The position numbers were made by a program, and so were the translations under genes. A DNA stretch of 64,000 bases. It comes from an uncultured Litoreibacter sp. GTDB taxonomy: Bacteria; Pseudomonadota; Alphaproteobacteria; Rhodobacterales; Rhodobacteraceae. Under the pieces are notes generated by a model. It did no database searches. It was given only the letters and a program-made list of their open reading frames with translations, and was not told where the DNA came from. This document shows, piece after piece, positions 2,307 to 22,451 of the stretch (its first letter is position 1; each line of letters begins with the position of its first letter). Location of the stretch: assembly GCA_947504205.1 (NCBI GenBank), contig CANNGL010000001.1, positions 682,001-746,000 of the forward strand. The letters run 5' to 3'.

Positions 2307-2319
2307 GCCCTAAAGGGCA

Positions 2320-2342
2320 GGGGCACGGCCTGGTCGTGCCCC
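2320..2342 (+). terminator. Stem-loop between the binding-protein and ATPase genes
   Basis: GGGGCACG (2320-2327) pairs perfectly with CGTGCCCC (2335-2342) around a 7-base loop. No T-run follows, so it more likely stabilises the binding-protein mRNA 3' end, or partly attenuates, than acts as a full terminator. Confidence 0.55.
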
Positions 2343-2366
2343 GCCTATCTGTCTGCTGCGAGGTCG

Positions 2367-4107: not shown

Positions 4108-5115
4108 ATGACTTCAATTAATCGCCGCCAGCTATTGGCCAGCACGGGTGCGACGGCTTTGATGATGGGCACTTTCGGCGCTCAACGTGCTTTTGCAGCG
4201 GAGCCGATCAAGACCGCGGGCATTTATACTGTTCCAGTCGAGCAGCAATGGGTGAGCCGGATCCACAAAGCTGCGCTCACCGCGCAAGAACGAGGTGATA
4301 TCGCTTATTCGTTCTCCGAAAATGTCAGCAATACCGACTATGCCCGCGTGATGCGGGAATACGCCGAAGCTGGCAACAAGCTGATCATCGGTGAGGTGTT
4401 CGGTGCCGAACAAGAAGCGCGCGAGGTGGCTGCGGATTACCCGGACGTGGCGTTCCTGATGGGCTCCAGCTTCAAGGAAGATGCAGCGCTGCCGAACTTT
4501 GCAGTGTTCGATAACTACATTCAAGACGGGTCGTATCTTTCTGGGATTATTGCTGGGGCGATGACCAAATCTGCCAACATTGGCATGGTCGGAGGCTTTC
4601 CAATCCCGGAGGTGAACCGCCTGATGCACGCCTTCATGGCCGGGGCACGCGAGATGAACCCAGAAATCACGTTCCAGGTCAGCTTCATCGGTAGCTGGTT
4701 CGATCCTCCAAAGGCCAAGGAAACGGCGTTTGCAATGATCGAGAATGGTGCCGATATTCTTTACGCGGAACGCTTTGGCGTCTCGGATGCGGCAAAGGAA
4801 AAAGGTATCCTGGCCATAGGCAATGTCATCGATACGCAAGGGGACTACCCTGACACGGTGGTTGCTTCCGCAATTTGGCATTTCGAGCCGACGCTGGATA
4901 AGGCGATTGCTGAAGTGCAGGCCGGAAGCTTTGCTGCCGCCGATTACGGCGTATATTCCTTCATGAACCAAGGCGGCACGTCGCTGGCGCCGTTGGGAAC
5001 GTTTGATGGCAAGGTGCCTGCGGCTGCGATGGAATTGGTGGCAAAGCGCACCGAGGAAATCAAATCTGGTGCGTTTACCGTGACAATCAACGACGAAGAA
5101 CCGAAGTCGTCCTAA
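4108..5115 (+). CDS. BMP-family ABC transporter substrate-binding protein (PnrA-like)
   Basis: A 335-residue exported binding protein with a twin-arginine-like leader (NRRQLLAS... ending ...RAFAAEP, cleavage near residue 31). The mature part carries BMP/Med-family features: 'KTAGIYTVPVEQQWVSRIHKA' near the start, repeated 'GADILYAE', and the 'SYLSGIIAGAMTKSANIGMVGG' segment. Family members bind purine or pyrimidine nucleosides, which fits the deaminase at the end of the operon. It lacks a lipobox Cys, unlike PnrA of Gram-positives and spirochaetes. The start at 4108 is fixed by the strong Shine-Dalgarno; the longer frame from 4051 is unlikely. Confidence 0.86.
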   Translation: MTSINRRQLLASTGATALMMGTFGAQRAFAAEPIKTAGIYTVPVEQQWVSRIHKAALTAQERGDIAYSFSENVSNTDYARVMREYAEAGNKLIIGEVFGAEQEAREVAADYPDVAFLMGSSFKEDAALPNFAVFDNYIQDGSYLSGIIAGAMTKSANIGMVGGFPIPEVNRLMHAFMAGAREMNPEITFQVSFIGSWFDPPKAKETAFAMIENGADILYAERFGVSDAAKEKGILAIGNVIDTQGDYPDTVVASAIWHFEPTLDKAIAEVQAGSFAAADYGVYSFMNQGGTSLAPLGTFDGKVPAAAMELVAKRTEEIKSGAFTVTINDEEPKSS

Positions 5116-5121
5116 CGGCTC

Positions 5122-6663
5122 ATGGAAAAGAAGCCGGTTGAGGCGCTTCGCCTGAACGAAATCACCAAAAGGTTCGGAGAGCTGATCGCGAATGACGCGG
5201 TCAGCTTTTCGGTGAGCCAAGGAGAAGTTGTCGCTCTGCTGGGTGAAAACGGTGCGGGCAAGACGACCCTGATGAACATATTGTTCGGCCAGTATACGGC
5301 CGACAGCGGAACCGTGTCGGTCTTCGGCCAGACGCTTCCGCCTGGAAATTCACGCGCCGCATTGGAGGCGGGCGTGGGCATGGTGCATCAGCATTTCACC
5401 TTGGCCGACAATCTGACCGTTCAGGAAAACATCACATTGGGTGTGAACCCCTTGTTTAGCGCCAGCCTGGGCAAGGCCGCAGCGCGTGCGCGGATCGTTG
5501 AGTTATCCGAACGCTTCCAGCTAAGTGTTTTACCCGAGGCCCGTGTCGCCAACCTGAGCGTCGGTGAAAGACAGCGGGTCGAAATTCTCAAAGCACTTTA
5601 CCGCGATGTACGCGTCCTGATCCTCGACGAGCCAACGGCCGTCCTGACCCCGCAAGAAACCGATGACCTGTTCGCGACGCTTCGGCAGGCAACGGCAAAT
5701 GGGCTATCGATCATTTTCATTTCGCACAAACTGCACGAGGTGATGGAAATCGCAGATCGTGTGGTGGTCCTGCGCCATGGGAAGCTCACGGGTGGTGCAC
5801 GTACAAAGGATACGGACAAACATGCCTTGGCGGCAATGATGATGGGGACAGAAACAACGCCACCAGACATCGCTACGACAAGTCCTGGCAAAACTCTAAT
5901 CTATCTTCAGAATGTAACGACACCTGACATTGGAAACGCGCCGGGGCTGAAATCGGTCTCTCTCGCACTTCGCTCGGCTCAGATCATTGGATTGGCGGGG
6001 GTCTCCGGCAACGGACAGACCGCTATGGCCGAGCTGATTGCCGGCATGCGGATTCCCTCCGAAGGCCGGATCATTTTGCGCGGAGAAACGGTCGCTGCTT
6101 GGTCGCCACGAACCGCAGTACAAAGTGGCATCGCGCGAATCCCGGAAGACCGTCACAAGACCGGCACCATCTCAGATTTCGACCTGACCGAAAACGCGAT
6201 TTTGGAGCGCTATACCTCTTCGACATTCAGCAGGAACGGCTGGTTGAACTGGCGCGCTGCGCGTGGTTTTGCAGACGAGATAATCGAAAAATATGATGTG
6301 CGGTGCCCGGGCGCGGATACAACGATCCGGCTTTTGTCAGGGGGTAATATGCAAAAGCTGATCCTTGGTCGCGTGCTTGAGGCCGATCCGCAAATCATAC
6401 TGGCAAACCAGCCGGTGCGAGGACTTGATATCGGCGCAGTCAATTATGTGCATGGCCAACTTCTTGCCGCGCGTGATCGCGGTGCGGCTGTTCTATTAAT
6501 CTCCGAAGACCTTGATGAGATTATGGCGCTGTCGGATGTGATCCATGTGATCGCTGATGGCAGACTATCCCCGGGTTTCGAGCGCGGAAGCATGTCTCCC
6601 GCAGAGCTTGGTATATGGATGGCTGGACAGGGGTTTGATGAAGCGGTGGTCCATGCGACTTGA
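5122..6663 (+). CDS. ABC transporter with two fused ATP-binding domains (nucleoside/simple-sugar class)
   Basis: A 513-residue tandem ATPase, partner of BMP-type binding proteins. The first domain is canonical: Walker A GENGAGKTT (about residues 40-48), signature LSVGERQR, Walker B VLILDEP. The second domain has GVSGNGQTA in place of Walker A (no Lys-Ser/Thr), 'LSGGNMQK' as signature and 'IILANQPVRGLD', the usual degenerate second half in the RbsA/YufO class. It starts 6 bases after the binding-protein stop and overlaps the next permease, so the subunits are cotranslated. Confidence 0.9.
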   Translation: MEKKPVEALRLNEITKRFGELIANDAVSFSVSQGEVVALLGENGAGKTTLMNILFGQYTADSGTVSVFGQTLPPGNSRAALEAGVGMVHQHFTLADNLTVQENITLGVNPLFSASLGKAAARARIVELSERFQLSVLPEARVANLSVGERQRVEILKALYRDVRVLILDEPTAVLTPQETDDLFATLRQATANGLSIIFISHKLHEVMEIADRVVVLRHGKLTGGARTKDTDKHALAAMMMGTETTPPDIATTSPGKTLIYLQNVTTPDIGNAPGLKSVSLALRSAQIIGLAGVSGNGQTAMAELIAGMRIPSEGRIILRGETVAAWSPRTAVQSGIARIPEDRHKTGTISDFDLTENAILERYTSSTFSRNGWLNWRAARGFADEIIEKYDVRCPGADTTIRLLSGGNMQKLILGRVLEADPQIILANQPVRGLDIGAVNYVHGQLLAARDRGAAVLLISEDLDEIMALSDVIHVIADGRLSPGFERGSMSPAELGIWMAGQGFDEAVVHAT

Positions 6664-7702
6664 ACCCATCGCAAACCCGACGCTGGGGCGCAGGTTGATG
6701 CCACCGGCAACTGCTCTGGTCGCGACAGTGACAATCGCTTCACTTTTGGCAATGACGGCGGGAGCCAATCCATTTTCCGTGCTTGGATTGATCCTCAAAG
6801 GTGCGTTTGGCTCCAAATTTGCGATCCTCGAGACATTGAACCGCGCAACACCCCTGATCTTTACGGGTTTGGCTGTCGCGGTGGCGTTTCGCGCCAAGTT
6901 CTGGAATATCGGTGCTGAGGCCCAGCTTTATGCAGGGGCGTTGGTGACTGTTGTATTTGGCACCGGACTGCTGCCTTGGCCAAGCATCGCGATCTTGCCA
7001 GTAATCATGATATTGGCAATCCTGGCGGGCGCGTTTCTTTTGTTAATCCCCGCGCTTCTGAAAACACGGTTTGGCGTTGACGAAGTGGTCACGACGCTTC
7101 TGTTTAACTTCATATTTCTGCTTTTCATTTCGATGTTGCTGGAAGGACCTCTCAAAGACCCAATGGGCATGGGCTGGCCCAAATCAGCGCGGGTGCTGGC
7201 CGAAGTGCGGTTGCCACGCATCGTCGAAGGATTAAGGCTGCACTGGGGCTTTGGCATCGCAATCATATCGGCTTTTGTCATCTGGATCATCCAGACCCGA
7301 AGCACCTTGGGGTATGAGATGCGCGCCGTCGGGTTGAACAAGGAAGCGGCAGCATTTGCAGGCATTCCGGTAAACAAGGTTCTGGTGAAGACAGCGCTTT
7401 TGTCAGGCGGACTGGCCGCACTTGCCGGGTTCTCGGAGGTGGCTGGGCTGAAGGGCAGCCTGACGCTCGATCTGTCTCCCGGCTTTGGCTACACGGGTAT
7501 CATCGTGGCGATGCTGGCGCTGCTCAATCCGCTGGGCGTTGTGATTGCGGCTCTCTTCGTTGCGGGGATCTTTGTTGGTGCAGACAGCATGAGTCGGGCT
7601 GCCGATGTGCCGACTTATCTGGCTGATATCATGTTGGCGACGGCGCTGTTGCTGATGGTTCTGGCGATCATGCTGACCCGGTTTCGCGTGGTAAGGGACT
7701 AA
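6638..7702 (+). CDS. ABC transporter permease, nucleoside type (YufP-like)
   Basis: A hydrophobic protein of 354 residues (from 6638) with 8-9 membrane segments and the branched-chain/simple-sugar permease signature (FRAKFWNIGAEAQLYAGAL; later NKEAAAFAGIPVNKVLVKTALLSGG). The start is uncertain: ATG 6638 has GGACAGGGG just upstream, while ATG 6653 (MRLEPIANP) lies inside the ATPase 3' end with a weaker site. The longer frame from 6557 is improbable because it sits within the ATPase gene. It pairs with the next gene as the two-permease core. Confidence 0.87.
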   Translation: MKRWSMRLEPIANPTLGRRLMPPATALVATVTIASLLAMTAGANPFSVLGLILKGAFGSKFAILETLNRATPLIFTGLAVAVAFRAKFWNIGAEAQLYAGALVTVVFGTGLLPWPSIAILPVIMILAILAGAFLLLIPALLKTRFGVDEVVTTLLFNFIFLLFISMLLEGPLKDPMGMGWPKSARVLAEVRLPRIVEGLRLHWGFGIAIISAFVIWIIQTRSTLGYEMRAVGLNKEAAAFAGIPVNKVLVKTALLSGGLAALAGFSEVAGLKGSLTLDLSPGFGYTGIIVAMLALLNPLGVVIAALFVAGIFVGADSMSRAADVPTYLADIMLATALLLMVLAIMLTRFRVVRD

Positions 7703-7704
7703 GC

Positions 7705-8649
7705 ATGGAAATCATCGAAATCCTGTTTACCGCAAGTTTCTGGGCCGCCGCCATCCGTATCGCGAGCCCGTTGATCTTCGCCACATTGGGGGAACTCATT
7801 TGTGAGCGTGCCGGGGTGCTCAATCTTGGGATCGAAGGGATTATGGTAGCGGGCGCATTTGCGGGCTGGATGGCAGTCTATTCGGGAACCGGGCTTTGGA
7901 CCGGCGTCTGTGTAGCGATGCTCGTTGGTATGGCATTCGGACTATTGCATTCTATCCTGACCGTGCCATTTGGTTTGTCACAGCACGTGGTTGGTTTGGG
8001 CGTGACCCTACTGGCGACCTCCTCAACCTACTATGCTTATCGCCTCGCACTGCCAGAGGTCACAAGCCCTCCGAAAATCGAAGCGTTTCAACCTTTCGAA
8101 ATACCCTTGCTGTCCGATCTTCCATTGGTGGGTCCGGCGCTATTCTCACAAACGCCCTTCACCTATCTTGCATTTGCGCTGGCGGTGGTTGTGTCTGTGG
8201 TGCTCTATCGCACGCCGCTTGGACTTGCCGTCCGTGCTGCAGGTGAAAATCCGGCGGCGGTAGCTGCACAAGGGCTATCAGTCTCGGCAATCCGGATGGG
8301 TGCCGTGGTTGTTGGCAGTGGCTTTATGGCTGTAGGTGGTGCATTTCTGACCATGTCTGCGTTCGACAGTTTCTTCTTTGAGATGGTCAATGGCCGGGGC
8401 TGGATCTGTATCGCGCTGGTGGTGTTCGGGTCGTGGCGTCCCGGAAAGGCTTTGCTGGGCGCTGTGTTATTTGCAGCCTTTGATGCGCTACAAATCCGGG
8501 TGCAGCAAACGGGCTTTGGCGCAGATATTCCCTATCAGATATTCCTCATGATGCCGTATGTTCTCTCGATTGTGGCTCTGGTGGTGATGTCGCGCCGGGC
8601 GGAAGTGCCAGCCGCCCTTATGGTACCGTTCAACAAAGGAGAACGCTGA
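7705..8649 (+). CDS. ABC transporter permease, nucleoside type (YufQ-like)
   Basis: 314 residues, about eight membrane helices. The signature 'ICERAGVLNLGIEGIMVAGAFAGW' (residues about 32-55) is the motif of the second permease in BMP/nucleoside transporters, with a coupling segment 'AVRAAGENPAAVAAQGLSV'. It begins 2 bases after the previous permease stop and shares one base with the deaminase start (TGATG), consistent with a single operon for uptake and deamination. Confidence 0.88.
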   Translation: MEIIEILFTASFWAAAIRIASPLIFATLGELICERAGVLNLGIEGIMVAGAFAGWMAVYSGTGLWTGVCVAMLVGMAFGLLHSILTVPFGLSQHVVGLGVTLLATSSTYYAYRLALPEVTSPPKIEAFQPFEIPLLSDLPLVGPALFSQTPFTYLAFALAVVVSVVLYRTPLGLAVRAAGENPAAVAAQGLSVSAIRMGAVVVGSGFMAVGGAFLTMSAFDSFFFEMVNGRGWICIALVVFGSWRPGKALLGAVLFAAFDALQIRVQQTGFGADIPYQIFLMMPYVLSIVALVVMSRRAEVPAALMVPFNKGER

Positions 8650-9917
8650 TGTTTGATTTGATCGTCAAAGGCGGCGTATTGCCCGATGGACGGGTAAGCG
8701 ACATTGGGATCAAGGCGGACAAGATTGCGGCCGTTGAAGACCTAAGTGGCGCTGATGCAGGGGACGTGATTGATGCCAGCGGTGATTTGGTAAGTCCGCC
8801 CTTTGTCGATCCGCATTTTCATATGGATGCGACGCTGTCTTATGGACTGCCGCGGATCAACGCGTCGGGTACGTTGTTGGAAGGCATCGGCCTTTGGGGT
8901 GAACTCAAGCAGGTCATGACGCAAGATGAGGTTGTGGCTCGTGCACTCAGATATTGTGACTGGGCCGCCAGCATGGGCCTTCTGGCGATACGCAGCCACG
9001 TCGACACGTGTGACGACCGCCTGTTGGGGGTTGAGGCGCTTCTGGACGTGCGAGAACAGGTCAAAGACTACATCGACATGCAACTCGTGGCATTTCCGCA
9101 GGATGGATTTTACCGCGATCCGACTGCACGGGAAAACACGATCAGGGCGTTGGATATGGGCGTCGATGTGGTGGGCGGCATCCCGCACTTCGAGCGCACG
9201 ATGGCGGATGGCGCCGCTTCGGTCAAAGAGCTATGCGAACTCGCAGCGGCGCGCGGTCTGCAGGTTGATATGCATTGTGACGAAACAGATGATCCTATGT
9301 CGCGCCATATCGAGACCCTTGCCTTTGAAACCCAGCGTTTGGGGCTTCATGGACGGGTAGCCGGCTCACACCTGACCTCTATGCATTCGATGGACAACTA
9401 TTATGTCTCGAAACTTTTGCCCTTGATTGCAGAGGCCGAGATCAACGTAATTCCGAACCCTTTGATCAATATTGTGCTGCAAGGCCGACATGACAGCTTT
9501 CCCAAGCGCCGGGGGCTGACCCGCATCAAAGAGATGCTGGCGATGGGCATCAATGTCGGCTGGGGGCAGGATTGCGTGCTGGACCCGTGGTACTCTCTAG
9601 GGACGGCTGACATGCTGGACGTGGCCTTTATGGGTTTGCACGTCGCACAGATGACCAGCCCGGACGAGATGCGGACCTGTTTCGATATGGTGACAACGCA
9701 CAATGCGCGTACGATGGGTTTGAAAGATTACGGGCTGCAGGTGGGGGCGAAAGCATCTCTGGTCGTGTTGGATGCGAGCAATCCGATTGAAGCACTACGC
9801 CTGCGGGCCGCGCGTCTGCATGTCGTGGCGAACGGGCGGATTGTCAGCCAAACACCACGCGGCGATGCCGCTCTTGACCTAAAAGACCGTCCCGAAACAG
9901 TCCGCAGACGTCACTGA
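8649..9917 (+). CDS. CodA-family amidohydrolase, predicted 5-methylcytosine/cytosine deaminase
   Basis: A 422-residue metal-dependent amidohydrolase that aligns with E. coli CodA with a constant -5 offset at the active site: H56/H58 (HFHMD), Q151 (VAFPQDG), H209 and E212 (HCDETDD), H241 (SHLTSMHS), D308 (GQDCVLDPWY). E. coli Asp314 is replaced by Cys309. Loss of that Asp was reported to mark CodA homologues that deaminate 5-methylcytosine to thymine, including one from Rhodobacter sphaeroides. Location at the end of a BMP-type transporter operon fits import of a nucleobase or nucleoside. A creatinine- or isoguanine-type deaminase is an alternative. The protein is cytoplasmic; no signal peptide is seen. 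Confidence 0.82.
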   Translation: MFDLIVKGGVLPDGRVSDIGIKADKIAAVEDLSGADAGDVIDASGDLVSPPFVDPHFHMDATLSYGLPRINASGTLLEGIGLWGELKQVMTQDEVVARALRYCDWAASMGLLAIRSHVDTCDDRLLGVEALLDVREQVKDYIDMQLVAFPQDGFYRDPTARENTIRALDMGVDVVGGIPHFERTMADGAASVKELCELAAARGLQVDMHCDETDDPMSRHIETLAFETQRLGLHGRVAGSHLTSMHSMDNYYVSKLLPLIAEAEINVIPNPLINIVLQGRHDSFPKRRGLTRIKEMLAMGINVGWGQDCVLDPWYSLGTADMLDVAFMGLHVAQMTSPDEMRTCFDMVTTHNARTMGLKDYGLQVGAKASLVVLDASNPIEALRLRAARLHVVANGRIVSQTPRGDAALDLKDRPETVRRRH

Positions 9918-10072: not shown

Positions 10073-11683
10073 ATGCGCACCACAGCAATCCTCAAGCTCG
10101 ATGAGCTTCCGGATCGAAAGCCGAAATATGCCATCGTAGGAGAGGTCGATCTGGTCGTGGTCAGGTTCGACGATGAGATTTCGGTTTTCTATGGTCGATG
10201 CCTGCATCGTGGGGCTCTGATGGCGGATGGTTTCGTTCGAGGCAAAGACCTGATCTGCGGTGTACATGATTGGGACTACCGTCTCGATTCAGGCGTCTCG
10301 GCCTATGCCAATGACGAAGCGTTACCGAAATTCAAATCCTGGGTGGAGGACGACTATGTCTGCGTCGATGCTCAAGAGATCGAAGATTGGGCCGAGGCCA
10401 ACCCGCAACCCTATAATCGCGACGCCTATCTTGGACTATATGCGGACCCTAGCCATGGAACTGACGAAGAGCCGTATACTGGATTGATCCAGAACTACGC
10501 CAAGAATGGCCTATCCAAAACGGGTCATCATGGAATTGTGGAATCCATGGGTGTGCCACGTAATCAACTGCCGGATTGGGATGACATCCAGCTTTTGACC
10601 GCACAATTGGCGACGCCGCCCTTGCTCGATGACGATCCGGTCGGCACCGATGTGGTTATCGGGCCGAATGCACAAAAGCCTCTGCGTCTGGATATTCCGC
10701 TATTTGTCTCGGACATGAGTTTCGGTGCGTTGTCAGAAACCGCGAAAATCGCCCTTGCGCGCGGCGCCGAGTTGGCCGGCACCGGGATTTGTTCGGGCGA
10801 GGGCGGAATGCTGCCTGAAGAACAAGCCGAAAACAGCCGCTATTTTTACGAGCTTGCCTCGGGCCGCTTTGGCTTCGGGTGGGACAAGCTGGACAAAGTG
10901 CAGGCGTTTCACTTCAAAGGCGGGCAGGGCGCCAAAACCGGAACCGGCGGCCATCTTCCGGGCAACAAAGTACAAGGCAAAATTGCCGAAGTACGGGATC
11001 TGGAACCCGGCACATCTGCAGTATCTCCTCCGCGTTTTCCCGATTGGACAGAAACCAGCCAAATCAAAGAGTTCGCCGACGAAGTTCGCAGCCGGACCGG
11101 AGGCATTCCCATCGGTTACAAGCTGTCTGCACAGCATATCGAAAAGGATATCGACGCGGCTCTCGATGTGGGCGTCGACTACATCATTCTAGATGGGCGA
11201 GGCGGTGGCACTGGTGCCGCACCGATTATTTTCCGAGACAACATTTCGGTCCCGACGATCCCTGCCTTGGCTCGCGCCCGTCGTCACTTGGACACGCTAG
11301 GGCGCGGGGATGTCTCACTGGTGATCACCGGTGGCCTGCGCAAACCTGCCGATTTCATCAAGGCGTTGGCTATGGGGGCTGATGCTGTTGCGGTCTCAAA
11401 CTCTGCGATGCAGGCGATTGGGTGCCTCGCGATGCGCGCCTGCCATACCAACAATTGCCCGGTGGGCATTGCGACGCAGAAACCTCACCTTGTCAGTCGA
11501 TTATTGGCTGACAAGTCTGCGCAACAGTTAGCAAATTTCTTCGGAGCGAGTGTCGAGTTGATGCAGGTAATGGCGCGGGCCTGTGGACATGATCACCTCT
11601 CAAAATTCAATGCCGCAGATCTGACCACGTGGAAACGCGAGATGTCAGATATGTCGGGCGTTTCCTTTGGAGGCCTTGCATGA
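10073..11683 (+). CDS. Rieske domain fused to a GltS-type FMN/FeS oxidoreductase
   Basis: 536 residues. Residues 1-100 are a Rieske-type [2Fe-2S] ferredoxin module with C43-x-H45 and C62-x2-H65. From about residue 150 it is the FMN-binding (synthase) domain of glutamate synthase: 'PLFVSDMSFGALSETAKIALARGA', 'GQGAKTGTGG', 'DGRGGGTGAAP', and a [3Fe-4S]-type motif C451-x5-C457-x4-C462. No glutaminase domain is present, as in the GltB2/archaeal-type group, so an amine or ammonia donor other than glutamine is likely. The Rieske module could feed electrons where GltD or ferredoxin normally does. GGGGACA precedes the ATG, and the gene opens a six-gene overlapping cluster. Confidence 0.85.
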   Translation: MRTTAILKLDELPDRKPKYAIVGEVDLVVVRFDDEISVFYGRCLHRGALMADGFVRGKDLICGVHDWDYRLDSGVSAYANDEALPKFKSWVEDDYVCVDAQEIEDWAEANPQPYNRDAYLGLYADPSHGTDEEPYTGLIQNYAKNGLSKTGHHGIVESMGVPRNQLPDWDDIQLLTAQLATPPLLDDDPVGTDVVIGPNAQKPLRLDIPLFVSDMSFGALSETAKIALARGAELAGTGICSGEGGMLPEEQAENSRYFYELASGRFGFGWDKLDKVQAFHFKGGQGAKTGTGGHLPGNKVQGKIAEVRDLEPGTSAVSPPRFPDWTETSQIKEFADEVRSRTGGIPIGYKLSAQHIEKDIDAALDVGVDYIILDGRGGGTGAAPIIFRDNISVPTIPALARARRHLDTLGRGDVSLVITGGLRKPADFIKALAMGADAVAVSNSAMQAIGCLAMRACHTNNCPVGIATQKPHLVSRLLADKSAQQLANFFGASVELMQVMARACGHDHLSKFNAADLTTWKREMSDMSGVSFGGLA

Positions 11684-12057
11684 ACGAAGCAGAACTCATC
11701 CTCTTTGCCGCCAAGATTTGGTGTGGGATCGGTGCGTTGGTGGCGGTTGTGTTTCTGACCTTTGGGATAGACCGGATCGATGAAGATGCAGATGGCGCAT
11801 ATGTGTTTCGTCCGCTTCTCGTGCCCGGTGTTTTGCTGATCTGGCCGATGGTGTTGTGGCGCTGGTACATATTGGCGGACGGAAAAGACGAGTGGTCGCA
11901 TCGCTATCGTCCGAAGCGACATAACCATGTCTGGTTCGCTTTGCTGATGCCCGTGGCAATCGTCATAATCATTGGGGCGGCCTTCTCCGTGCGGCAGACT
12001 TGGCCGGGTGACATTGCTCCAGAACCTCTGTCAGCACCGGCGGAGGTCAGCGAATGA
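11680..12057 (+). CDS. Small membrane protein of unknown function in the Rieske cluster
   Basis: 125 residues with three hydrophobic segments (about 5-26, 42-62 and 83-102). Between the second and third is a polar loop (ADGKDEWSHRYRPKRHNH) rich in His and Arg. No family recognised. The ATG at 11680 overlaps the previous stop (ATGA), and the longer upstream frame is not needed. It overlaps the next gene by 4 bases. It may anchor the soluble Rieske-GltS protein to the membrane or form part of a membrane redox complex; this is inference from position only. Confidence 0.72.
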   Translation: MNEAELILFAAKIWCGIGALVAVVFLTFGIDRIDEDADGAYVFRPLLVPGVLLIWPMVLWRWYILADGKDEWSHRYRPKRHNHVWFALLMPVAIVIIIGAAFSVRQTWPGDIAPEPLSAPAEVSE

Positions 12058-13124
12058 GCGTCAAATACATTCCCGTTCAGTGGAACCGTAACAAGTGGAT
12101 TTACGATGCCGTGATGCTGATTGGCGTGATCTTGTTTCTCTATCTGTTTTTGTTTGTCAGTCCTGAAATTTTAAGCCACGAAAATCCGATCAATCCACAG
12201 ATTCACAATGCGCGAGCCTTTGGTGCGTGTGCGTTCATTATGCTGACCGTGATCTTGTGCATCGGCCCGCTGGCACGGATCGACAGGCGGTTCTTGCCGC
12301 TCCTCTATAACCGGCGACACTTTGGTGTAATGACCCTGTTTGTGGCGATTACCCACGCCAGCTACATTCTGAACTGGTACTTTGCCTTTTCGAGTTCGAA
12401 CAAATTCGAAGCACTGCTTTTTGCCAATACCAGCTACGGTCAGCTTGCCGGTTTCCCCTTCGAGGTATTCGGGGTTTTCGCGCTCTTTTGCCTGGCCCTT
12501 CTGGCGGTCACGAGCCACGACTTCTGGATGAAATTTCTAACGCCTCCCGTCTGGAAGCGTCTGCATAGCCTTGTTTATTTTGCTTATGTTTCGGTCGTGG
12601 CACATGTCAGCTTTGGCATCCTGCTGGATCAACAAAACCACGTGTTTACCGTAATCTTTGTCGGCGGCGCGTTGAGCGTGGCCGGACTTCATGCCTATGC
12701 GGCTTGGCTGGAATATAAGGCAGGCGATGATATCGGCTCAAATCAGGGTGGTTGGGTCGATATCTGTGATGCATCCGAATTTCGGGATGGGTTTGCCAAA
12801 ATCAAGATATTGCCGAGTGGTGAACGCGTTGCGGTCTTTAACCAGGGCGGCAATCTATCAGCGATCTCGAACGCCTGTGCACATCAAAATGGCCCATTGG
12901 GAGAGGGACGGGTGATCGACTGTTTAGTGACGTGCCCGTGGCACGGCTTCCAATACGATGTCACAAATGGGCGTTCCCCAGCTCCGTTTACGGAGAAAAT
13001 ACCAACCTACAACTTGCGTCTGGATGGCACGCGGGTGTTGGTGGATCCGGTTGCCAACTCGCCCGGCACCTACGTGGAACCGGTGCCGCTGCCTGATGTA
13101 GTGACAAAGGAGGTTTTGGTATGA
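12054..13124 (+). CDS. Ferric-reductase-like haem membrane domain fused to a Rieske domain
   Basis: 356 residues. The N-terminal half has about six membrane helices with His placed as in the ferric reductase/MsrQ (FRD) family: ITHASYIL, then WKRLHSLVYFAYVSVVAHV with the two His one helical pitch set apart, suggesting b-type haem ligation. After about residue 230 comes a Rieske [2Fe-2S] module: C275-x-H277 and C294-x2-H297 (CPWHGF). The usual FAD/NADPH domain of such reductases is absent, so electrons probably pass directly between haem and Rieske centre. 4-base overlaps on both sides tie it to the cluster. Confidence 0.83.
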   Translation: MSVKYIPVQWNRNKWIYDAVMLIGVILFLYLFLFVSPEILSHENPINPQIHNARAFGACAFIMLTVILCIGPLARIDRRFLPLLYNRRHFGVMTLFVAITHASYILNWYFAFSSSNKFEALLFANTSYGQLAGFPFEVFGVFALFCLALLAVTSHDFWMKFLTPPVWKRLHSLVYFAYVSVVAHVSFGILLDQQNHVFTVIFVGGALSVAGLHAYAAWLEYKAGDDIGSNQGGWVDICDASEFRDGFAKIKILPSGERVAVFNQGGNLSAISNACAHQNGPLGEGRVIDCLVTCPWHGFQYDVTNGRSPAPFTEKIPTYNLRLDGTRVLVDPVANSPGTYVEPVPLPDVVTKEVLV

Positions 13125-13882
13125 GCGAGAAAACTCCATTCTTCGTAGGGTACCTTCCTGTTCCGCAGGGCTTGCGTCGGTTTCTACTCGTGGCGGTGCT
13201 GGGGGTCATCGCGTTGTTTGGTGTCGTAGGGCTTGTGATTGGCAGCACGCAAGACGCGCCGGAACAATCCGGTTTTCGATTTGATTATGGCCGCCAGACA
13301 GTGACCGGCGTGATCGAGATGACACCTTACCCCATTCTGCGGGTCACTGAGGGAAACGATCTGATAATGCCCGGCAAAACTCTGATGCTGGCCGGTCAGG
13401 GTAAGAATGGGATTGATGCCCGTACCGGACCAATGGCAGGCGGCTTGGCAACCGTCACCGGTATCGTGTTGCAGCGGGGTACGATCGATATGCTCCAGCT
13501 GTTACCGGGACAGCGCGGGATCAAGGTCGCCGAGGGAGAGGCCCAACCCATTGAGACCGAGGCCTTGGGGCGTTGGAAACTGGCCGGAGAGATCTGCGAT
13601 GGTAAATGCCTGAACGGCGCGATGCGACCGGGGCGTGGCTTAGCCCACAAAGCATGTGCATCGCTCTGCTTGCTCAACGAGGTTCCGCCGGTTTTCGTCT
13701 CCACCCAACCTGTCGAAGGGCGCGAGTTCATGCTGATCACCGGACCGGATGGCACACCACTGCCCGACATGGCTTACGATTTTATTGGCCAGTTCGTTAG
13801 CCTGGAGGGTGATCTGGAGCGTCGTGGAGATATTCTGGTACTTCGCATGGATGCCGCGACGTTGGAGGTAATCCCACAATGA
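13121..13882 (+). CDS. Membrane-anchored protein with a four-Cys motif, unknown function
   Basis: 253 residues: one N-terminal membrane anchor (about 20-41), then a probably periplasmic domain. The notable segment is GEICDGKC (C159, C163), followed by GRGLAHKACASLC (C179, C183), i.e. C-x3-C-x15-C-x3-C with a His at 176. This could hold a metal or FeS centre or form disulfides. The flanks are rich in beta-strand-like sequence (TVTGVIEMTPYPILRV; FVSLEGDLERRGDILVLRM). The family is not recognised. It overlaps both neighbours by 4 bases, so it is an integral part of the Rieske cluster. Confidence 0.72.
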   Translation: MSEKTPFFVGYLPVPQGLRRFLLVAVLGVIALFGVVGLVIGSTQDAPEQSGFRFDYGRQTVTGVIEMTPYPILRVTEGNDLIMPGKTLMLAGQGKNGIDARTGPMAGGLATVTGIVLQRGTIDMLQLLPGQRGIKVAEGEAQPIETEALGRWKLAGEICDGKCLNGAMRPGRGLAHKACASLCLLNEVPPVFVSTQPVEGREFMLITGPDGTPLPDMAYDFIGQFVSLEGDLERRGDILVLRMDAATLEVIPQ

Positions 13883-14157
13883 TCAAGCGTGTCGGACTAC
13901 TTCTGCTGATGGTCGCCGTTGCGATCGCATTGCTCTATATTTCACGCTTCTGGACGGTGCGATTATGGGACCGGGGCGATTTGTTCGGCTTGCGCCCTCA
14001 AGGTGGTTATCTAGCGCAATGGCTGCGTGGTACCCGCTTTGCCCCCTTCGAATTGTTGATCTGGGTGACAGGCTCGTTCCTGATCCTGACCTGGCTACAA
14101 CGACTGACCGATTATCTAAGCTCACCCCCCGAAACCGATGGAGAGACGCATGAGTGA
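13879..14157 (+). CDS. Small two-helix membrane protein, unknown function
   Basis: 92 residues with hydrophobic helices at about 5-22 and 58-75 and an Arg-rich connecting segment (WTVRLWDRGDLFGLRPQGGYLAQWLRG). No recognised motif. It overlaps the upstream gene by 4 bases and the ThDP-enzyme gene by 8. Size and position suggest an accessory or assembly subunit for the membrane part of the cluster. Confidence 0.68.
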   Translation: MIKRVGLLLLMVAVAIALLYISRFWTVRLWDRGDLFGLRPQGGYLAQWLRGTRFAPFELLIWVTGSFLILTWLQRLTDYLSSPPETDGETHE

Positions 14158-16126
14158 AGACCTGGACTGGATCTCTGTTGGGCATGTTGATGACTTGCCT
14201 GAGGGCCGTATTAAAACTGTAACCGCGCGCACCACATCGATCTGCCTTGTGCACTTTGATGGTCAGTGGGCAGCGATGAACAACCATTGTCCACATCAGA
14301 AAGGTCCTCTGGGAGAGGGAACCATTGAGAAAGGCGTCGACAACAAATGCTGGATCAGGTGCCCGTGGCACGGTTGGGACTTTGACCCGCTAACCGGCGC
14401 CCCTCCGGGTGGGCACGAGGATACGGGCCAGCAGATGTACCCGCTCGATATTCGCGATGGCGAGATTTTCGTGGGTATCGAGGCTGAGCCACCCCACGAG
14501 CGCACCGTGACCGATCTCATGGTGGAAACTATGACAAATTGGGGCGTGAAATCGGTGTTCGGTATGGTCGGTCACTCCAATCTTGGATTGGCAGATGCCG
14601 TTCGTTTGGCGGTGATAGACAAGAAGCTGAATTTCTTTGGTATCCGCCATGAGGGCGCTGCTGCTTTCGCCGCATCCGCCTACGGAAAACTCACCGGTGA
14701 GCCAGCAGCATGCCTGACGATTGCAGGCCCCGGCGCGACCAATCTGCTGACAGGTATGTGGGACGCGAAAGTTGACCGTGCGCCGGTTTTAGCGCTGACG
14801 GGACAAGTGCAAACCCAAGTGTTTGGCCCCGGTGCTTTTCAGGACATTGACCTTGCCTCCGCGTTTGATGCCGTCTCGGCGTTTTCGCAGACGGTTCTAA
14901 GCACGTCGAACCATGCTGAACTAATGTCCCTTGCTTGCAAGCACGCGATTGTCGAGCAAAACGTGTCACATCTGATCTTTCCCGACGACATGCAGACCAA
15001 CCCGTCCGACAAGCCCGCGGGTAAGCCCGAGGGACGCATGGGGGGTACGAAGGTTACCCCGTCAGACGATGACATCGCCGCAGCGACGGATATGCTCAAC
15101 GGCGCGAAACGCCCGATGATTGTTGTAGGTCATGGCGCCTACGGTGCGCGGGATCAGATCGCGGCGCTGGCCGAGAAGCTTGGCGCTCCGGTTGTCACAA
15201 CGTTCAAGGCCAAGGGTCTGATACCGGACAGTCACTCACTGGGCGCAGGCGTTTTGGGTCGTTCTGGCACGCCCATTGCAAGCTGGTTCATGAATGAGGC
15301 CGATGTTCTTCTGGTCTTCGGGGCCAGCTTCTCGAACCACACGGGAATTGCACTGAAGGACAACATTATTCAGGTGGATTACGACCGGATGCAGCTTGGC
15401 AAATTCCATCCCGTAAAGCTCCCAATTTGGGGCGAGATCGGCGCGTTTTGCGATGTCATAGCTGATCGGCTGGAACCCAATGCGCAGGCGGATGATCAGC
15501 GATCTGAGTTGGCTGACCGTTGGCAGGCATGGTGTGAAGAAAAGCAACGCCGTTTGGCCGAAGAGCATGGCAGAGGCATCCATTCCTTCGCGATATTCGA
15601 GGCCCTCGGTCGTTTGGTCCCCGATGACACGATCTTTGCAGTCGATGTGGGCAACAACACCTATTCATTCGGGCGTTATCTGGAAACCAAGGGATCGCAG
15701 CGGGTGTTGATGTCCGGCTATCTTGGATCGATAGGGTTTGGTTTTCCCGCAGCGCTTGGCGCTTGGGCCGCGACACAGGACAAAGCCGGTCTCAAAGGAC
15801 GCAAGGTTGTCTCCATCTCGGGCGATGGTGGGTTTGGGCAGTACCCGATGGATTTCACCACAGCGGTCAAGTACGGGATGGATATCACCCACATTCTGCT
15901 CCACAACGGAGAGCTTGGCAAAATCTCGAAAGAGCAGCGCTCTGGGGAATGGCCTGTTTGGGAAACAGATCTCCAGAATCCGTCATTCGCGGCGTTTGCA
16001 CGGTTATGTGGCGGGCACGGGATCAAGGTCACAGAGGCCTCGGAGATCGAGGCCGCGATTTCTGAGGCATTGGCTATCGATGGCCCGGCACTCGTCGAAT
16101 TCATGACGGATGCGGAACTGGTCTAG
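14150..16126 (+). CDS. Rieske domain fused to a thiamine-diphosphate (ThDP) enzyme
   Basis: 658 residues from the ATG at 14150, which overlaps the previous stop. Residues 1-110 form a Rieske module: C47-x-H49 and C71-x2-H74 (CPWHGWDF). From about 118 it is a complete three-domain ThDP enzyme of the acetolactate synthase/pyruvate oxidase class: catalytic-Glu region IRHEGAAAFAASAYGKLTG, a central domain (RPMIVVGHGAYGA), and a C-terminal cofactor motif beginning GDGGFGQ and ending in HNGELGK. A Rieske centre joined to such an enzyme is unusual; it suggests that electrons from oxidative decarboxylation leave through the [2Fe-2S] centre. The substrate is unknown. The four residues before this Met in the longer frame lie in the previous gene. 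Confidence 0.85.
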   Translation: MSEDLDWISVGHVDDLPEGRIKTVTARTTSICLVHFDGQWAAMNNHCPHQKGPLGEGTIEKGVDNKCWIRCPWHGWDFDPLTGAPPGGHEDTGQQMYPLDIRDGEIFVGIEAEPPHERTVTDLMVETMTNWGVKSVFGMVGHSNLGLADAVRLAVIDKKLNFFGIRHEGAAAFAASAYGKLTGEPAACLTIAGPGATNLLTGMWDAKVDRAPVLALTGQVQTQVFGPGAFQDIDLASAFDAVSAFSQTVLSTSNHAELMSLACKHAIVEQNVSHLIFPDDMQTNPSDKPAGKPEGRMGGTKVTPSDDDIAAATDMLNGAKRPMIVVGHGAYGARDQIAALAEKLGAPVVTTFKAKGLIPDSHSLGAGVLGRSGTPIASWFMNEADVLLVFGASFSNHTGIALKDNIIQVDYDRMQLGKFHPVKLPIWGEIGAFCDVIADRLEPNAQADDQRSELADRWQAWCEEKQRRLAEEHGRGIHSFAIFEALGRLVPDDTIFAVDVGNNTYSFGRYLETKGSQRVLMSGYLGSIGFGFPAALGAWAATQDKAGLKGRKVVSISGDGGFGQYPMDFTTAVKYGMDITHILLHNGELGKISKEQRSGEWPVWETDLQNPSFAAFARLCGGHGIKVTEASEIEAAISEALAIDGPALVEFMTDAELV

Positions 16127-18618: not shown

Positions 18619-20247
18619 CTAGAGCTTGTCTTCCAGCCAGTAGGACACGTAACTTTCGTTGTAATCCGTGCGCTTGACGAACTGCTTCCAGCTGGCGCTG
18701 CTCGAAGTGATGCCTGTGTCTGTTCGAAGATCTGGCTTGTCTTTGCGTATCGGCTCATCATTGTCGTCCTTGTCCAGATAACGTGTCATGATGACGCGTG
18801 ACTTGGCTTTCAGAAAAAGAGCATCCTCGATGGCTTTCATCGGATGCCGCCATGGGCGCTTTTTGCCGTATGCCCAAACCTTATTGGTAGGGATCATCGC
18901 CACGAAATGATCGGCATATTCGTTTTGCGCCATCCAGCTGAGATTGGCATGGGGGCTGTCGAGAGTGCCGTTCAGCGTTGCATTATGAGAGCCGTGATGC
19001 CCGACCTTATAGAAGGTGCATCGGCCCAGCAGGTCTTTTGCCGTCACGGTCTGGCCATCCACGGTCCACGATACATCGGCCCAACTGCGCCAGCTCCCGG
19101 CTTGCGCATCTCCGGTGAAAAGCATGACCTGCCGGCTCTTGGTCAGCTCGATTCCGAGCACCAGGGAGGTATTGTTCACCTCGGAATTCAGTCGCAATGC
19201 CATGCCCTCGGCGTCATCGAGCCAGTCCGCATCGATGCGCCGATCGGGGTCGCCGTTGTCGTAATGCAGGCTGTAGAACGTGCGAACTTTCTCGTCAGCT
19301 TCGGTTTCGCCTTCGGGTGGTTCTTCTGGTGAAGTGAAACGGAACCTTGGGTCGAAAGGACTTGCGTCGGCGTCGCCCGTGCGTGCTTCGAATGCGGCAA
19401 ACAGGCCTGCGCCAACGCCGCCCATTGCGTAAGGACCCGCATGGAATTCTTCTTTGCGGCGAGGGTTGAGGCTGGTCAGCAACTTCCTGTCGCGTGGTGG
19501 GCCAAATGGATAGAAGCGGACTTTGTCGCCCAACGCTTCGATTTCCAACGGTCCGTCGCCTGGGCTTAAGAATTTGATCTTTTTGGCCATGCCGCGCAGT
19601 CCTTGGAGCTTCTGCTTGTAGCGTTTGCCCCGGATCTTGGCGCTAAAGACCGCCGCAAAAGCCTGCTCTCCACGATCGCCGGATCTGCGAAGCGATACGC
19701 CAGCTGTTTTGGCCATGTTCTTGAGTATTTCCGAGCCCGTCTTCTCGCCCATCTCTAGTTCGAGAAATTCTTCGAGCGTTTCGATGAGCGTGGTGTCCGC
19801 TGCTGCCGCTGCGGGCAGGGAGGTTAGCTGATGATGCGCCATCGCAAGGGCAAGAAGCTTGTCACCGTATATGTCCCGCAATTCGTTGGCGAGATCGTCT
19901 TCGGGGTCCTCGGTCCACGCAAGCCAAAGCTCCTCGACCTCGAATTTTTTGAAGGGATGCAACGGATCGTCGAGCTTGGGAAAGCCAGACACATGGTCTT
20001 CGTGCTCGTGGGTCACCACGACGACATCGAGCTTCCCACCAGTATGCTCGCGCATTTCCTCCAGTATCGCGTCGGTGCCACGATCCTCCACAGCGTGGCT
20101 GCCTTTTTTCATGCCGCAATCAATCAGCATGTGAAACGGCACAGTGGAGCGTCCCGGTTTCTTGAAACTGAGCAAGAAGCAATCGCCATGTCCGGGACGA
20201 TACATCCGGATCGACACGCCTGAGCGAGGAGCTTTGATCTTGGTCAT
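18619..20247 (-). CDS. Metallo-beta-lactamase-fold protein, ComEC/Rec2-like catalytic domain
   Basis: 542 residues, last gene of a coupled trio. Metal-binding HxHxDH is present as H80-E-H82-E-D84-H85, followed by the ComEC-type strand-loop motifs NNTSLVL, LFTGD (D380) and KVGHHGSHNAT (about 414-424). It has no membrane helices, so it is a soluble MBL hydrolase, not a DNA-uptake channel. A charged insert of about 230 residues separates the two halves. Stand-alone ComEC-like MBL proteins occur in accessory loci and are probably nucleases or phosphodiesterases; activity here is inferred. The start overlaps the protease stop by 4 bases (ATGA). Confidence 0.78.
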   Translation of the reverse strand: MTKIKAPRSGVSIRMYRPGHGDCFLLSFKKPGRSTVPFHMLIDCGMKKGSHAVEDRGTDAILEEMREHTGGKLDVVVVTHEHEDHVSGFPKLDDPLHPFKKFEVEELWLAWTEDPEDDLANELRDIYGDKLLALAMAHHQLTSLPAAAAADTTLIETLEEFLELEMGEKTGSEILKNMAKTAGVSLRRSGDRGEQAFAAVFSAKIRGKRYKQKLQGLRGMAKKIKFLSPGDGPLEIEALGDKVRFYPFGPPRDRKLLTSLNPRRKEEFHAGPYAMGGVGAGLFAAFEARTGDADASPFDPRFRFTSPEEPPEGETEADEKVRTFYSLHYDNGDPDRRIDADWLDDAEGMALRLNSEVNNTSLVLGIELTKSRQVMLFTGDAQAGSWRSWADVSWTVDGQTVTAKDLLGRCTFYKVGHHGSHNATLNGTLDSPHANLSWMAQNEYADHFVAMIPTNKVWAYGKKRPWRHPMKAIEDALFLKAKSRVIMTRYLDKDDNDEPIRKDKPDLRTDTGITSSSASWKQFVKRTDYNESYVSYWLEDKL

Positions 20248-22451
20248 CCGAAACTATCCTGTGCGGTTTCAAATCGGTGCAGATCGGTGAAGGCTGTGTC
20301 GCTGTCGGATGTACTGCCATCAAAGAACGCGTTGTTCTGTCGTGCAGCATCTCCCAAAAGATGGGCGCGCTGCAGGGCAAGCCCCGTATTGCAATGCACG
20401 GGATAGCTTGACCGGATCAGGCGACGAATGTTGTAGGTGCTGGCATCCACCAGAAATGTCGTGCCCGCACGGTATTTGAAATCAAATGCCCGATCCTCGT
20501 TTTCCTCTCGCAGCTCCATCTGATCTTCGTATTCCTGTTGGTCGGGATCATAATAACCCCGACGCGTCTGGATAAGTTCGACAATATATTCACGGTCCAA
20601 TGCACCCCGCTGCCCCACACGTTTCGCTATCCGAACGGAGTGCACGTGCAATGAGGGGCAGCCTGTATTGAAGGAGCGCCGCACAGTTGGGGGCGCCTCG
20701 GGATCGAAGTTGATCCCAATCAATTGGGCAAATCGGCTGGTTTGTTCATTGGTGAGCAAGAACCACAAGAGTTGCTTGTAGTAGTTCGAGATCAGGTACT
20801 CGATATGTCGGTCCTTGGTCGAACCGATCTCCAGCATATTCGAGCTGAGGACTTCAGTTTTGGAAAACCTTGTGGCGGAGGCTTTGGTGTCATGACGCTC
20901 CGCCTCCAGATGCCCAAGCTCGCGCCGGATCAGAAGCGAGGCCTCTTTTAGATCGTTTTCCGCCTTTTCGATCAGTTTAATGCGCCGTGGAAGTTCATCC
21001 GCTTTGAATTGGCGATCCCCGAATTTCATTTCTTGCAGCATCAAGTTCGGATTTTCCATCAGCATACCCAGATGCGCGCGCACCTTGGAAACATCGACGG
21101 TTCCCTCACCAGAGGCATGGCCCGACGCGAGCCGGTCTTGCTCGGCCTGACTGAGTGTTGGCCATAGTAAGGCCCCAACGGAGGGGACATTCACGTCGCG
21201 CGGCAAGATGCCCCAAGCTGAGAACGCTTCGAGAAACGCATCGCGGTAACCCTGTTTGTCCTCCGGAAACAGGTCGTGATCGGCTGTCAGAATTGCACGA
21301 AGATAATCGCCAAAAGTCACGTTGACCGGTGGTGTGTAGTCCATCGCACGAATGCAGATACGCATGACGCGCCGAGCGCACTGGGCGGCCTCCGCCGATA
21401 GGCGACGCTTCAGGTCGGGATCAATTTCGCCCTCGCGCAGTTTGCCCGATCCGTTTGACGCAATTCGAAACAGGTCTGCGACTCGTGCTTTGTAGATAGT
21501 GAGAAACGCGCGGAATACGGCGGCAACCAGCACAGAACCGCGATCATGTGGACCCTTGGCATTGTAGAACTTTTGCGGGTCTGGTGTCAGAGGCTCCCAA
21601 TCTCCGGTTTCTGGGTTTTCTGAGCCCAAAAAATTTCTCAAGGCATGGCCGCGACCCAAGGCCTTGCCGAATTCCTGCGCCAACTCGCCCAAGATGTTCT
21701 GACGTGAAAGGTTGCCGCGCGTTTTAGCAATCTGGTCCATCAGCACTTCGGGATAAGAAAACATCTGAAACAGCGCCACAATATCTGCGAATGCCTCGTG
21801 AAGCCCGCGAATATCCGGGTTGGCATTCTCGGCGAAATGCGGGTGCATGCCGTCGAGAATAGCGTGGACTGTTTCGTGCACGATGACATCATGGCTAAGG
21901 CACGTGAACACAGTCGTTCCAGCAGGTGCTCCGGTCGATGTCTCGGGCGCGTCAAAATAACCAAATAGCAGTGCTTTTTTCTTCGGATTGTAAAAAGCAT
22001 TGGCTTCGCGCAGGGCGTGGGGAAAAATACGCAACCGTTGAATATAGGTGTCTACCCAGTTGCCTTGGTCGTCTTGCGAGATTTTGGGCGCCCATTGGAC
22101 GACGCGCCCCAGAGCCTCTTCAAACACTGCTACCGTGTTCATCGCGACTGCATAGACCATTTGCTGGTGAAACTGCGGGTTCTCCGGCGAGGGTTCCAAC
22201 CCGTCGTTGAACCGAACCTGATCTGAATTCAAATCCAGCGGAACGTAATATGCGTCACTTGCGGGATCGACATCAATGACCTCAAGATACTCTCCCCGTG
22301 GGCCGACATCTGCGTCGGCATCAAGCTCATAGGGCAGCGATATCGTGACGATCCGAGCATCTCTGTTGGCGAACTGCCGACCTGTTGAGGGATCGAAGGC
22401 GAAGACCCGCAAACGACGCGGAGGCCTGAATTCCGTTTTGAGTTGGCTCAT
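20244..22451 (-). CDS. Large HExxH (gluzincin-like) metalloprotease-fold protein
   Basis: 735 residues. A zinc-protease core is visible: HETVH at 192-196, then GLHEAFAD with E219 as the probable third ligand and D223. This resembles the thermolysin/M4-type HExxH plus ExxxD pattern with a modified second motif (HEAFAD rather than NExxSD). Residues 1-180 are beta-rich; the 500 residues after the core are mostly helical, with a segment near 480-530 rich in Lys/Glu that may coil. No signal peptide was found, so it should act in the cytoplasm, unlike secreted M4 enzymes. Both ends overlap neighbours by 4 bases, implying fixed stoichiometry with the patatin and MBL proteins. Confidence 0.72.
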   Translation of the reverse strand: MSQLKTEFRPPRRLRVFAFDPSTGRQFANRDARIVTISLPYELDADADVGPRGEYLEVIDVDPASDAYYVPLDLNSDQVRFNDGLEPSPENPQFHQQMVYAVAMNTVAVFEEALGRVVQWAPKISQDDQGNWVDTYIQRLRIFPHALREANAFYNPKKKALLFGYFDAPETSTGAPAGTTVFTCLSHDVIVHETVHAILDGMHPHFAENANPDIRGLHEAFADIVALFQMFSYPEVLMDQIAKTRGNLSRQNILGELAQEFGKALGRGHALRNFLGSENPETGDWEPLTPDPQKFYNAKGPHDRGSVLVAAVFRAFLTIYKARVADLFRIASNGSGKLREGEIDPDLKRRLSAEAAQCARRVMRICIRAMDYTPPVNVTFGDYLRAILTADHDLFPEDKQGYRDAFLEAFSAWGILPRDVNVPSVGALLWPTLSQAEQDRLASGHASGEGTVDVSKVRAHLGMLMENPNLMLQEMKFGDRQFKADELPRRIKLIEKAENDLKEASLLIRRELGHLEAERHDTKASATRFSKTEVLSSNMLEIGSTKDRHIEYLISNYYKQLLWFLLTNEQTSRFAQLIGINFDPEAPPTVRRSFNTGCPSLHVHSVRIAKRVGQRGALDREYIVELIQTRRGYYDPDQQEYEDQMELREENEDRAFDFKYRAGTTFLVDASTYNIRRLIRSSYPVHCNTGLALQRAHLLGDAARQNNAFFDGSTSDSDTAFTDLHRFETAQDSFG

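Follow-up and report, generated by a model that had tools for sequence, protein, structure and literature searches.

The subject of this analysis is a cluster of six genes, A to F, on the plus strand of a 64,000-nucleotide stretch of DNA from an uncultured Litoreibacter sp. (contig CANNGL010000001.1, positions 682,001–746,000, forward strand). The whole stretch is called the window; the cluster, taken from the list of open reading frames (ORFs), occupies window positions 10073–16126. A, C and F each join a Rieske [2Fe-2S] domain to a different partner, and B, D and E encode membrane proteins that matched no Pfam or NCBIfam model at E ≤ 0.1 (Table). A first-pass annotation of the DNA had pointed out these three fusions, with CxH and CxxH motifs intact in each, and the lack of a recognized family for the other three proteins. 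The Pfam scan and a check of the ligands confirmed both statements.

The six-gene cluster and its Rieske fusions

The successive overlaps A/B, B/C, C/D, D/E and E/F measure 4, 4, 4, 4 and 8 bases, bearing out the short overlaps annotated before. These figures assume ATG starts at 11680 (B), 12054 (C), 13121 (D), 13879 (E) and 14150 (F); the longest listed ORFs of B (11629) and F (14138) would give overlaps of 55 and 20 bases. A GGAGG-type site precedes the start codon of B, C, D and E, and the A/B overlap reads ATGA. Upstream, A lies 155 bases from a cytosine deaminase gene; downstream, 5 bases lie between the end of F and that of a convergent gene. Promoter-like and terminator-like sites showed no excess over shuffled sequence, and an Rfam search of the window gave no match.

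Table. Features of the cluster (window coordinates) and of related gene sets in other loci (locus coordinates)
Feature	Position	Strand	Description	Basis
Gene A	10073..11683	+	Rieske + glutamate-synthase-type FMN/[3Fe-4S] barrel, 536 aa	Pfam, ligand conservation
Gene B	11680..12057	+	Small membrane protein, 125 aa, three hydrophobic segments	Hydropathy, no Pfam
Gene C	12054..13124	+	MsrQ/YedZ-like heme membrane domain + C-terminal Rieske, 356 aa	Pfam, NCBIfam
Gene D	13121..13882	+	One N-terminal membrane anchor, two putative OB-like barrels, 253 aa	AlphaFold2 model
C163-H176-C179-C183 motif of D	13607..13669	+	Kept in 49/49 relatives	
Gene E	13879..14157	+	Small membrane protein, 92 aa, conserved Trp/Arg	No Pfam, alignment
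Gene F	14150..16126 (alternative start 14138)	+	Rieske + pyruvate-oxidase-like ThDP enzyme	Pfam
B-C-D + ATP-grasp/GNAT/cysteine-dioxygenase-like set, L097	4004..11986			
Same type of set, L166	3927..8562			
Same type of set, L169	5907..11100			
Same type of set, L170	5062..10076			

Loss of the Rieske residues among orthologues had been named beforehand as evidence that would count against the annotation. In alignments built from the relatives in the loci gathered by that stage, the ligands were kept in 59/59 rows of A, 65/65 of C and 85/85 of F. The count for A covers the rows holding a Rieske domain and leaves out 12 of 71 (five with the N-terminus missing from the ORF or locus, seven of a CDGSH type). 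That for F likewise omits 11 of 96 (seven thiamine diphosphate (ThDP) enzyme paralogues of the window's genome, one fragment and three Rhizobium paralogues).

In F, an N-terminal Rieske domain (PF00355, 4.8e-17, ~14168–14401) is followed by the M, N and C domains of TPP_enzyme (PF00205, PF02776 and PF02775; 2.2e-35, 8.9e-32 and 1.1e-31; ~14504–16102). Its best match among solved structures is E. coli PoxB (7.6e-67). Catalytic Glu172 was present in 96/96 rows, and the GDG...N metal site was nearly as constant (D563 in 95/96; N590 in 88/96, with D in the remaining eight). The C-terminal membrane-binding tail of PoxB is missing: the match stops at PoxB residue 527 of 572, and F ends five residues later. 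The best five NCBIfam matches include pyruvate oxidase and pyruvate dehydrogenase models, with scores below the cut-offs (385.4 vs 742 for PRK08611; 308.2 vs 792 for PRK09124).

Gene A begins with its Rieske domain (PF00355, 2.4e-11, ~10088–10300) and continues with Glu_synthase (PF01645, 2.8e-89, ~10667–11587), the domain that binds flavin mononucleotide (FMN) and a [3Fe-4S] cluster. The cluster cysteines C451, C457 and C462 were kept in 71/71 rows. The Pfam scan of A found no glutaminase (class II GATase) domain, and A scored 133.3 bits against the full-length glutamate synthase equivalog (cut-off 1047). A pattern search showed that in seven relatives (L089, L125–L129 and L131) two CDGSH motifs each replace the Rieske domain; the three of these that were scanned all match zf-CDGSH. 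As such relatives indicate, the catalytic core of A accepts either cluster module, Rieske or CDGSH. CDGSH–Glu_synthase proteins are mentioned in passages of PMC5859297, where no mention of a Rieske version was found. Only in L089 and L131, of the seven, does the CDGSH-type A adjoin F. C was not matched in the genomes with this arrangement (G213 and G102). It was also unmatched in G031, G206 and G214, which combine a Rieske-type A with F, so there is no more than a hint that C goes with a Rieske domain on A.

Gene C matches Ferric_reduct (PF01794, 1e-11, ~12222–12596) and ends in a Rieske domain (PF00355, 6.4e-15, ~12753–13010). Outside the latter, its best NCBIfam match is MsrQ (1.1e-11; 44.7 bits vs a cut-off of 130). 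R87, H89, H101, H171 and H184 were all present in 65/65 rows. R87 stands at the first heme-histidine place of the YedZ/MsrQ pattern, followed by H101, H171 and H184, a placing that we made by spacing. The rule of one Arg and three His for YedZ/STEAP proteins was taken from passages of PMC3591440. Five hydrophobic segments were detected, and we infer a sixth around H89–H101. We read the Rieske domain of C as cytoplasmic and the D domain as outer, an orientation in keeping with the positively charged loops and with the N-terminus of D. The Rieske domains of F and C share 25 of 82 aa and, judged by this comparison, are related. No molybdopterin domain of an MsrP-type molybdoenzyme was found in A–F or in the four flanking proteins scanned.

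Gene D had no Pfam match, and its 49 relatives gave isolated sub-threshold matches only. The motif C-x3-C-x15-C-x3-C annotated before is present in the window (C159, C163, C179 and C183). Its first cysteine is lost in 10 of the 49 relatives (kept in 39/49), and the invariant form is the C-H-C-C motif of the Table, which probably binds a metal or a cluster. The AlphaFold2 model, built with 48 sequences, has a mean predicted local distance difference test (pLDDT) score of 87.2 and shows a single helix besides two halves rich in beta strands. We read both halves as OB-like, going by the order of their strands and by weak, non-significant OB-type matches. Because the N-terminal anchor is preceded by positive residues, these barrels should face outwards. 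A PDB fold search with the model gave no match at E ≤ 0.001 (best 0.068), and the three matches of a PDB profile search (E 0.011–0.29) were read as chance. A match to the monooxygenase 8fhj (E 2.8e-4) was also rejected as chance, the aligned part lacking the C-H-C-C motif. Relatives of B precede C in many loci. In E, W25, W30, W48 and W62 were kept in 41/41 alignment rows; BLAST found its relatives only in loci of the window's taxonomic order and in other alphaproteobacterial records.

Two modules and their distribution

A scan of a genome collection yielded 115 relatives of F, the best 80 of which gave the locus set; it includes near-identical strains and metagenome-assembled genomes (MAGs). 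Genes were called with a simple longest-ORF script, and phylum names are our reading of the record titles. The relatives come from records titled Alphaproteobacteria, cyanobacteria, Acanthopleuribacter, Myxococcota, Saprospiraceae (Bacteroidota), Phycisphaerales (Planctomycetota) and others, many of them MAGs. F also occurs, at 52–60% identity, on five plasmids, four of them haloarchaeal and one from Mycobacteroides.

Gene orders were tallied for those loci, 59 of the 80, in which 7 kb or more precede F. The most frequent was A-F (15), followed by antiporter-A-BCDE-F (9), antiporter-A-F with or without sigma/anti-sigma genes (9), A-BCDE-F (6), BCDE-F (6), F alone (6) and BCD-A-F (3, one with antiporter). 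Single cases were BCD-F, antiporter-F, BCD-F-antiporter (Myxococcota), A-F-BCD (Saprospiraceae) and a divergent DCBA/F. C was present in 28/59 loci and A in 44/59, lying at most 500 bases upstream of F in 27. In one cyanobacterium, C-D lies about 2.4 kb from F-A. The six genes thus fall into two modules, A-F and B-C-D(-E), which occur singly or jointly and in changing order, and a fixed six-gene unit was rejected on this tally. Of the six-gene set whose order was to be checked for conservation, the linkage stands: homologues are linked in records titled Alphaproteobacteria, Saprospiraceae and Myxococcota, and C-D lies near F-A in the cyanobacterium. The fixed order does not, the modules being separable and permuted and E restricted. 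Chance does not explain the neighborhood, since several lineages show the arrangement.

Co-occurrence was also counted in whole genomes. Among 196 genomes of the window's taxonomic order, F was found in 18, C in 22 and both in 16 (Fisher p = 8.9e-17, inflated by linkage). The two are linked in 13 of these 16 and far apart or on different contigs in three (G059, G112 and G169). A accompanies F in 18/18, one copy being of the CDGSH type. Among 63 genomes of a cyanobacterial order, F was found in 8, C in 10 and both in 6 (p = 7.6e-5). Here the pair lies within 4 kb only in G409; it is 0.29 Mb apart in G419, 6.6 Mb apart in G198 and on different contigs in the other three. Across the cyanobacterial phylum, 194 genomes held C in three, F in one and both in one. 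C was present in 15 and A in 13 of the 19 F-bearing genomes reached from the loci, a set that leaves out the genome of L070; no C was found in five plasmid records, whose chromosomes lay outside the search. The sets overlap (by coordinates, G059 = G210 and G169 = G208; G196, G197 and G198 are in both the 19-genome and the cyanobacterial set). F is thus partly, not absolutely, linked to the B-C-D module beyond operon hitch-hiking.

Genes near the cluster and its relatives

A cation/proton antiporter gene (PF00999) was present in 21/59 loci, at most 400 bases upstream of A in 18. Its nearest NCBIfam model is a potassium/proton antiporter (138.8 vs a cut-off of 355). In the neighbor tally, Na_H_Exchanger made up 13 of 134 case proteins and at most one of 126 controls, where it was not among the 25 families listed. 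These proteins are a manual selection from 232 case and 152 control gene calls, which makes the p values only a guide; region L176 contributed no control protein. An antiporter search of the window's own genome was empty and, being run without a positive control, shows little.

Clusters of extracytoplasmic function (ECF) sigma and anti-sigma genes accompany A-F in 7/85 loci. The anti-sigma copy scanned is a zf-HC2 protein, and HxxxCxxC was found in 8/8 copies. The ECF sigma factor beside antiporter-A-F in L110 and that beside C-D in L167 (Phycisphaerales) are of the same type (80/180 aa identical). Three Rhizobium plasmids carry C-D and have no match to F at 1e-100; sigma factor, NrsF, chlorite-dismutase-family, CopD and DsbD genes lie near C-D on one or another of them. 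On the haloarchaeal plasmids, MerA, dihydrolipoyl-dehydrogenase, DsrE or TauE genes lie within 9 kb of F. A ChrR cupin-like domain was matched in L068 (6959–7639), and the corresponding gene lies at most ~3 kb upstream of F in six Tateyamaria loci, adjoining A where A is present. This neighbor hints at redox or singlet-oxygen regulation.

In Myxococcota L097 and three cyanobacterial genomes, the neighbors of B-C-D include related genes of ATP-grasp (glutathione-synthetase-like), GNAT and cysteine-dioxygenase-like type (Table). An EamA transporter joins the set in three of these four, and one further cyanobacterium, beyond the three, has an EamA relative beside D. BLAST at 1e-5 found no relatives of these four proteins in the window among the best 14 matches per query. 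The set looks like a small-molecule pathway common to Myxococcota and cyanobacteria. A giant fused F in L097 was rejected: the long open frame is GC-rich, and other genes occupy other frames there.

Downstream of F in cyanobacteria (L102, L105, L106, L108 and L193), and near F on the Mycobacteroides plasmid (L115, 6145–6861), stands an FMN_red/flavodoxin-type gene, whose product might stand in as redox partner in the absence of A. A gene of ~280 aa follows F in nine loci (L110, 12000–12875, and eight others); the L110 copy had no Pfam or NCBIfam match.

Elsewhere in the window, an NMT1/THI5-like substrate-binding gene is followed by two ORFs that are possibly its transporter (1287–3927). A PnrA/Bmp-type ABC transporter and the cytosine-deaminase-like gene lie directly upstream of A (4051–9917). 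On the minus strand, three overlapping genes (18619–23602) encode a metallo-beta-lactamase-fold protein (542 aa), a 735-aa protein without a Pfam family and with a HETVH motif seen by eye, and a patatin-like phospholipase; they could be an effector or defense-type operon. The tRNA-Phe with anticodon AAA that ARAGORN placed at 54682–54774 (minus strand, 93 bases) lies within the transcription-repair coupling factor gene (53949–57398) and is probably a false call.

A possible electron route and its alternatives

The reshuffled recurrence of the modules in very different bacteria suggests an electron-transfer system. We favor a two-module redox system, in which soluble A and F would feed the membrane module B-C-D-E through Rieske centers, and rate it as tentative, a little short of an even chance. 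It is built on composition, ligand conservation, overlapping genes, permuted linkage and the partly unlinked co-occurrence of F and C. F would act in the cytoplasm, where it would oxidize a small metabolite, probably a 2-oxo acid such as pyruvate; the electrons would exit through the enzyme's own Rieske center in place of a PoxB-type membrane-binding tail. The path would run from the 2-oxo acid to ThDP (and flavin adenine dinucleotide (FAD), if bound), the Rieske center of F, the cytoplasmic Rieske center of C and heme b in the MsrQ-like helix bundle, and then to D or quinone. Where present, A would deliver electrons to the same pool by way of its Rieske or CDGSH module and might oxidize an amine or amino acid upstream of F. 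B and E may be small membrane partners of C. The outward-facing D, with its C-H-C-C site, would likely be the outer acceptor or a coupling part, quinone being the alternative acceptor. We infer the contact between the modules, the complex, the outward flow, the substrates, the terminal acceptor and every arrow between proteins. In a bolder form, which is possible and which we would sooner doubt than assert, this is a respiratory-type system not described before: soluble ThDP and FMN dehydrogenases plugged into a membrane heme conduit by interchangeable [2Fe-2S] modules, Rieske or CDGSH, delivering electrons to a new family of outer metalloproteins (D), spread between phyla as two exchangeable modules and often accompanied by a cation/proton antiporter.

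Several observations weigh against the two-module redox system. No C lies in the stretch in 31/59 loci, and F-bearing genomes without a match to C are G031, G102, G197, G206, G213, G214 and G423. Conversely, C occurs without F in 6/196, 4/63 and 2/194 genomes, and A is absent from 6/19 F-bearing genomes. The set from the window's taxonomic order says little beyond linkage, because F and C are linked in most of the genomes that have both. The support comes from genome comparison. The antiporter, sigma factor and detoxification-type neighbors could reflect a stress response rather than catabolism.

These neighbors are the core of an alternative that we consider unlikely, though still a serious contender: antiporter-A-F and B-C-D-E would be independent stress-response units under shared regulators, traveling together because both answer the same oxidative or electrophile stress. 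No electrons would pass between them, and B-C-D-E would serve as a route of repair or reduction that leads to the cell envelope, like MsrPQ. The sigma/anti-sigma clusters, the antiporter, the Rhizobium plasmids with C-D and no F match, and the genes near haloarchaeal F all fit. The related Rieske modules on F and C, and their linkage in several lineages with differing gene orders, speak against it; shared regulation and electron transfer are in any case compatible. Distinctly less probable is a soluble biosynthetic pair that works like N-methylglutamate synthase. The oxidation of a 2-oxo acid by F would supply the electrons with which the FMN of A reduces an imine, and the membrane module would do no more than drain or supply electrons. 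The close spacing of A and F, the conserved GltS core and the presence of A in every F-bearing genome of the window's taxonomic order agree with this. The missing glutaminase domain and the genomes with F and without A disagree, and Rieske potentials of ferredoxin-type centers are high for such a reduction.

A reversed flow, with quinol feeding C and the Rieske centers driving reductive chemistry in A and F, seems very improbable. MsrQ-type proteins have been reported to use quinones, but reductive carboxylation yielding a 2-oxo acid would be strongly uphill at a Rieske potential. We also give little credence to a regulatory role of the Rieske domains, in which they would sense redox state or oxygen and so switch A, C and F instead of carrying electrons. 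CDGSH is a redox-sensitive cluster, and its replacement of Rieske in relatives of A would suit a sensor, as would the stress-type neighbors; a swap for another [2Fe-2S] carrier fits wiring equally well. The ferric reductase domain (FRD) proteins described in passages of PMC3591440 are electron conduits, some with fused electron-transfer domains, which speaks against sensing.

With the above results in hand, the membrane redox complex first suggested for this layout can be restated as the two-module system. The fusions, the overlaps and the co-occurrence in distant lineages, partly even unlinked, were retained. The single unit gave way to two modules and the four-cysteine motif to C-H-C-C; A was missing from some F-bearing genomes, its Rieske domain proved replaceable by CDGSH, and the antiporter was added. 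If true, ThDP oxidases and GltS-type flavoenzymes would be hard-wired to a membrane heme by fused Rieske centers. This would provide a route of carbon oxidation without NAD, lipoamide or direct quinone binding, a new electron source for MsrQ-like membrane heme proteins and a first function for D. As relatives of F span bacterial phyla and haloarchaeal plasmids, the answer would annotate a widespread family.

The annotation had known of no described system of this composition, and we found none in our searches of open-licence full texts, nor a description there of a Rieske–ThDP fusion, a Rieske–GltS fusion, D or the linked system. The pieces already known are PoxB, the GltS FMN domain, MsrQ, the FRD–Rieske architecture (in passages of PMC3591440) and CDGSH–Glu_synthase (in passages of PMC5859297). 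F shares the ThDP fold and catalytic residues with PoxB, a pyruvate:ubiquinone oxidoreductase, and differs by its N-terminal Rieske domain, the missing tail and scores far under the family cut-offs. A has the FMN/[3Fe-4S] core of the glutamate synthase large subunit and single-domain GltS relatives; unlike glutamate synthase, it lacks the glutaminase domain and has a Rieske domain fused at its N-terminus. In the Pfam scan, A, C and F had no catalytic oxygenase domain beside the Rieske domain, unlike Rieske non-heme oxygenases. Where long-form NADPH oxidases and ferric reductases carry FAD and NAD(P)H domains, the C-terminus of C is a Rieske domain. The passages of PMC3591440 include FRD protein model M4, which combines a heme membrane domain with Rieske as in C; it is a figure-legend architecture that also names FMN and, unlike C, comes with no operon, partners or function there. 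Another close parallel is MsrPQ (YedYZ), a transmembrane electron path to a periplasmic methionine sulfoxide reductase. C has the YedZ/MsrQ-like domain in common with it and likewise a gene partner, D, that probably faces outwards. It differs by its Rieske domain, the sub-cut-off MsrQ score, the lack of an MsrP-type partner among the proteins scanned and a partner that belongs to no Pfam family.

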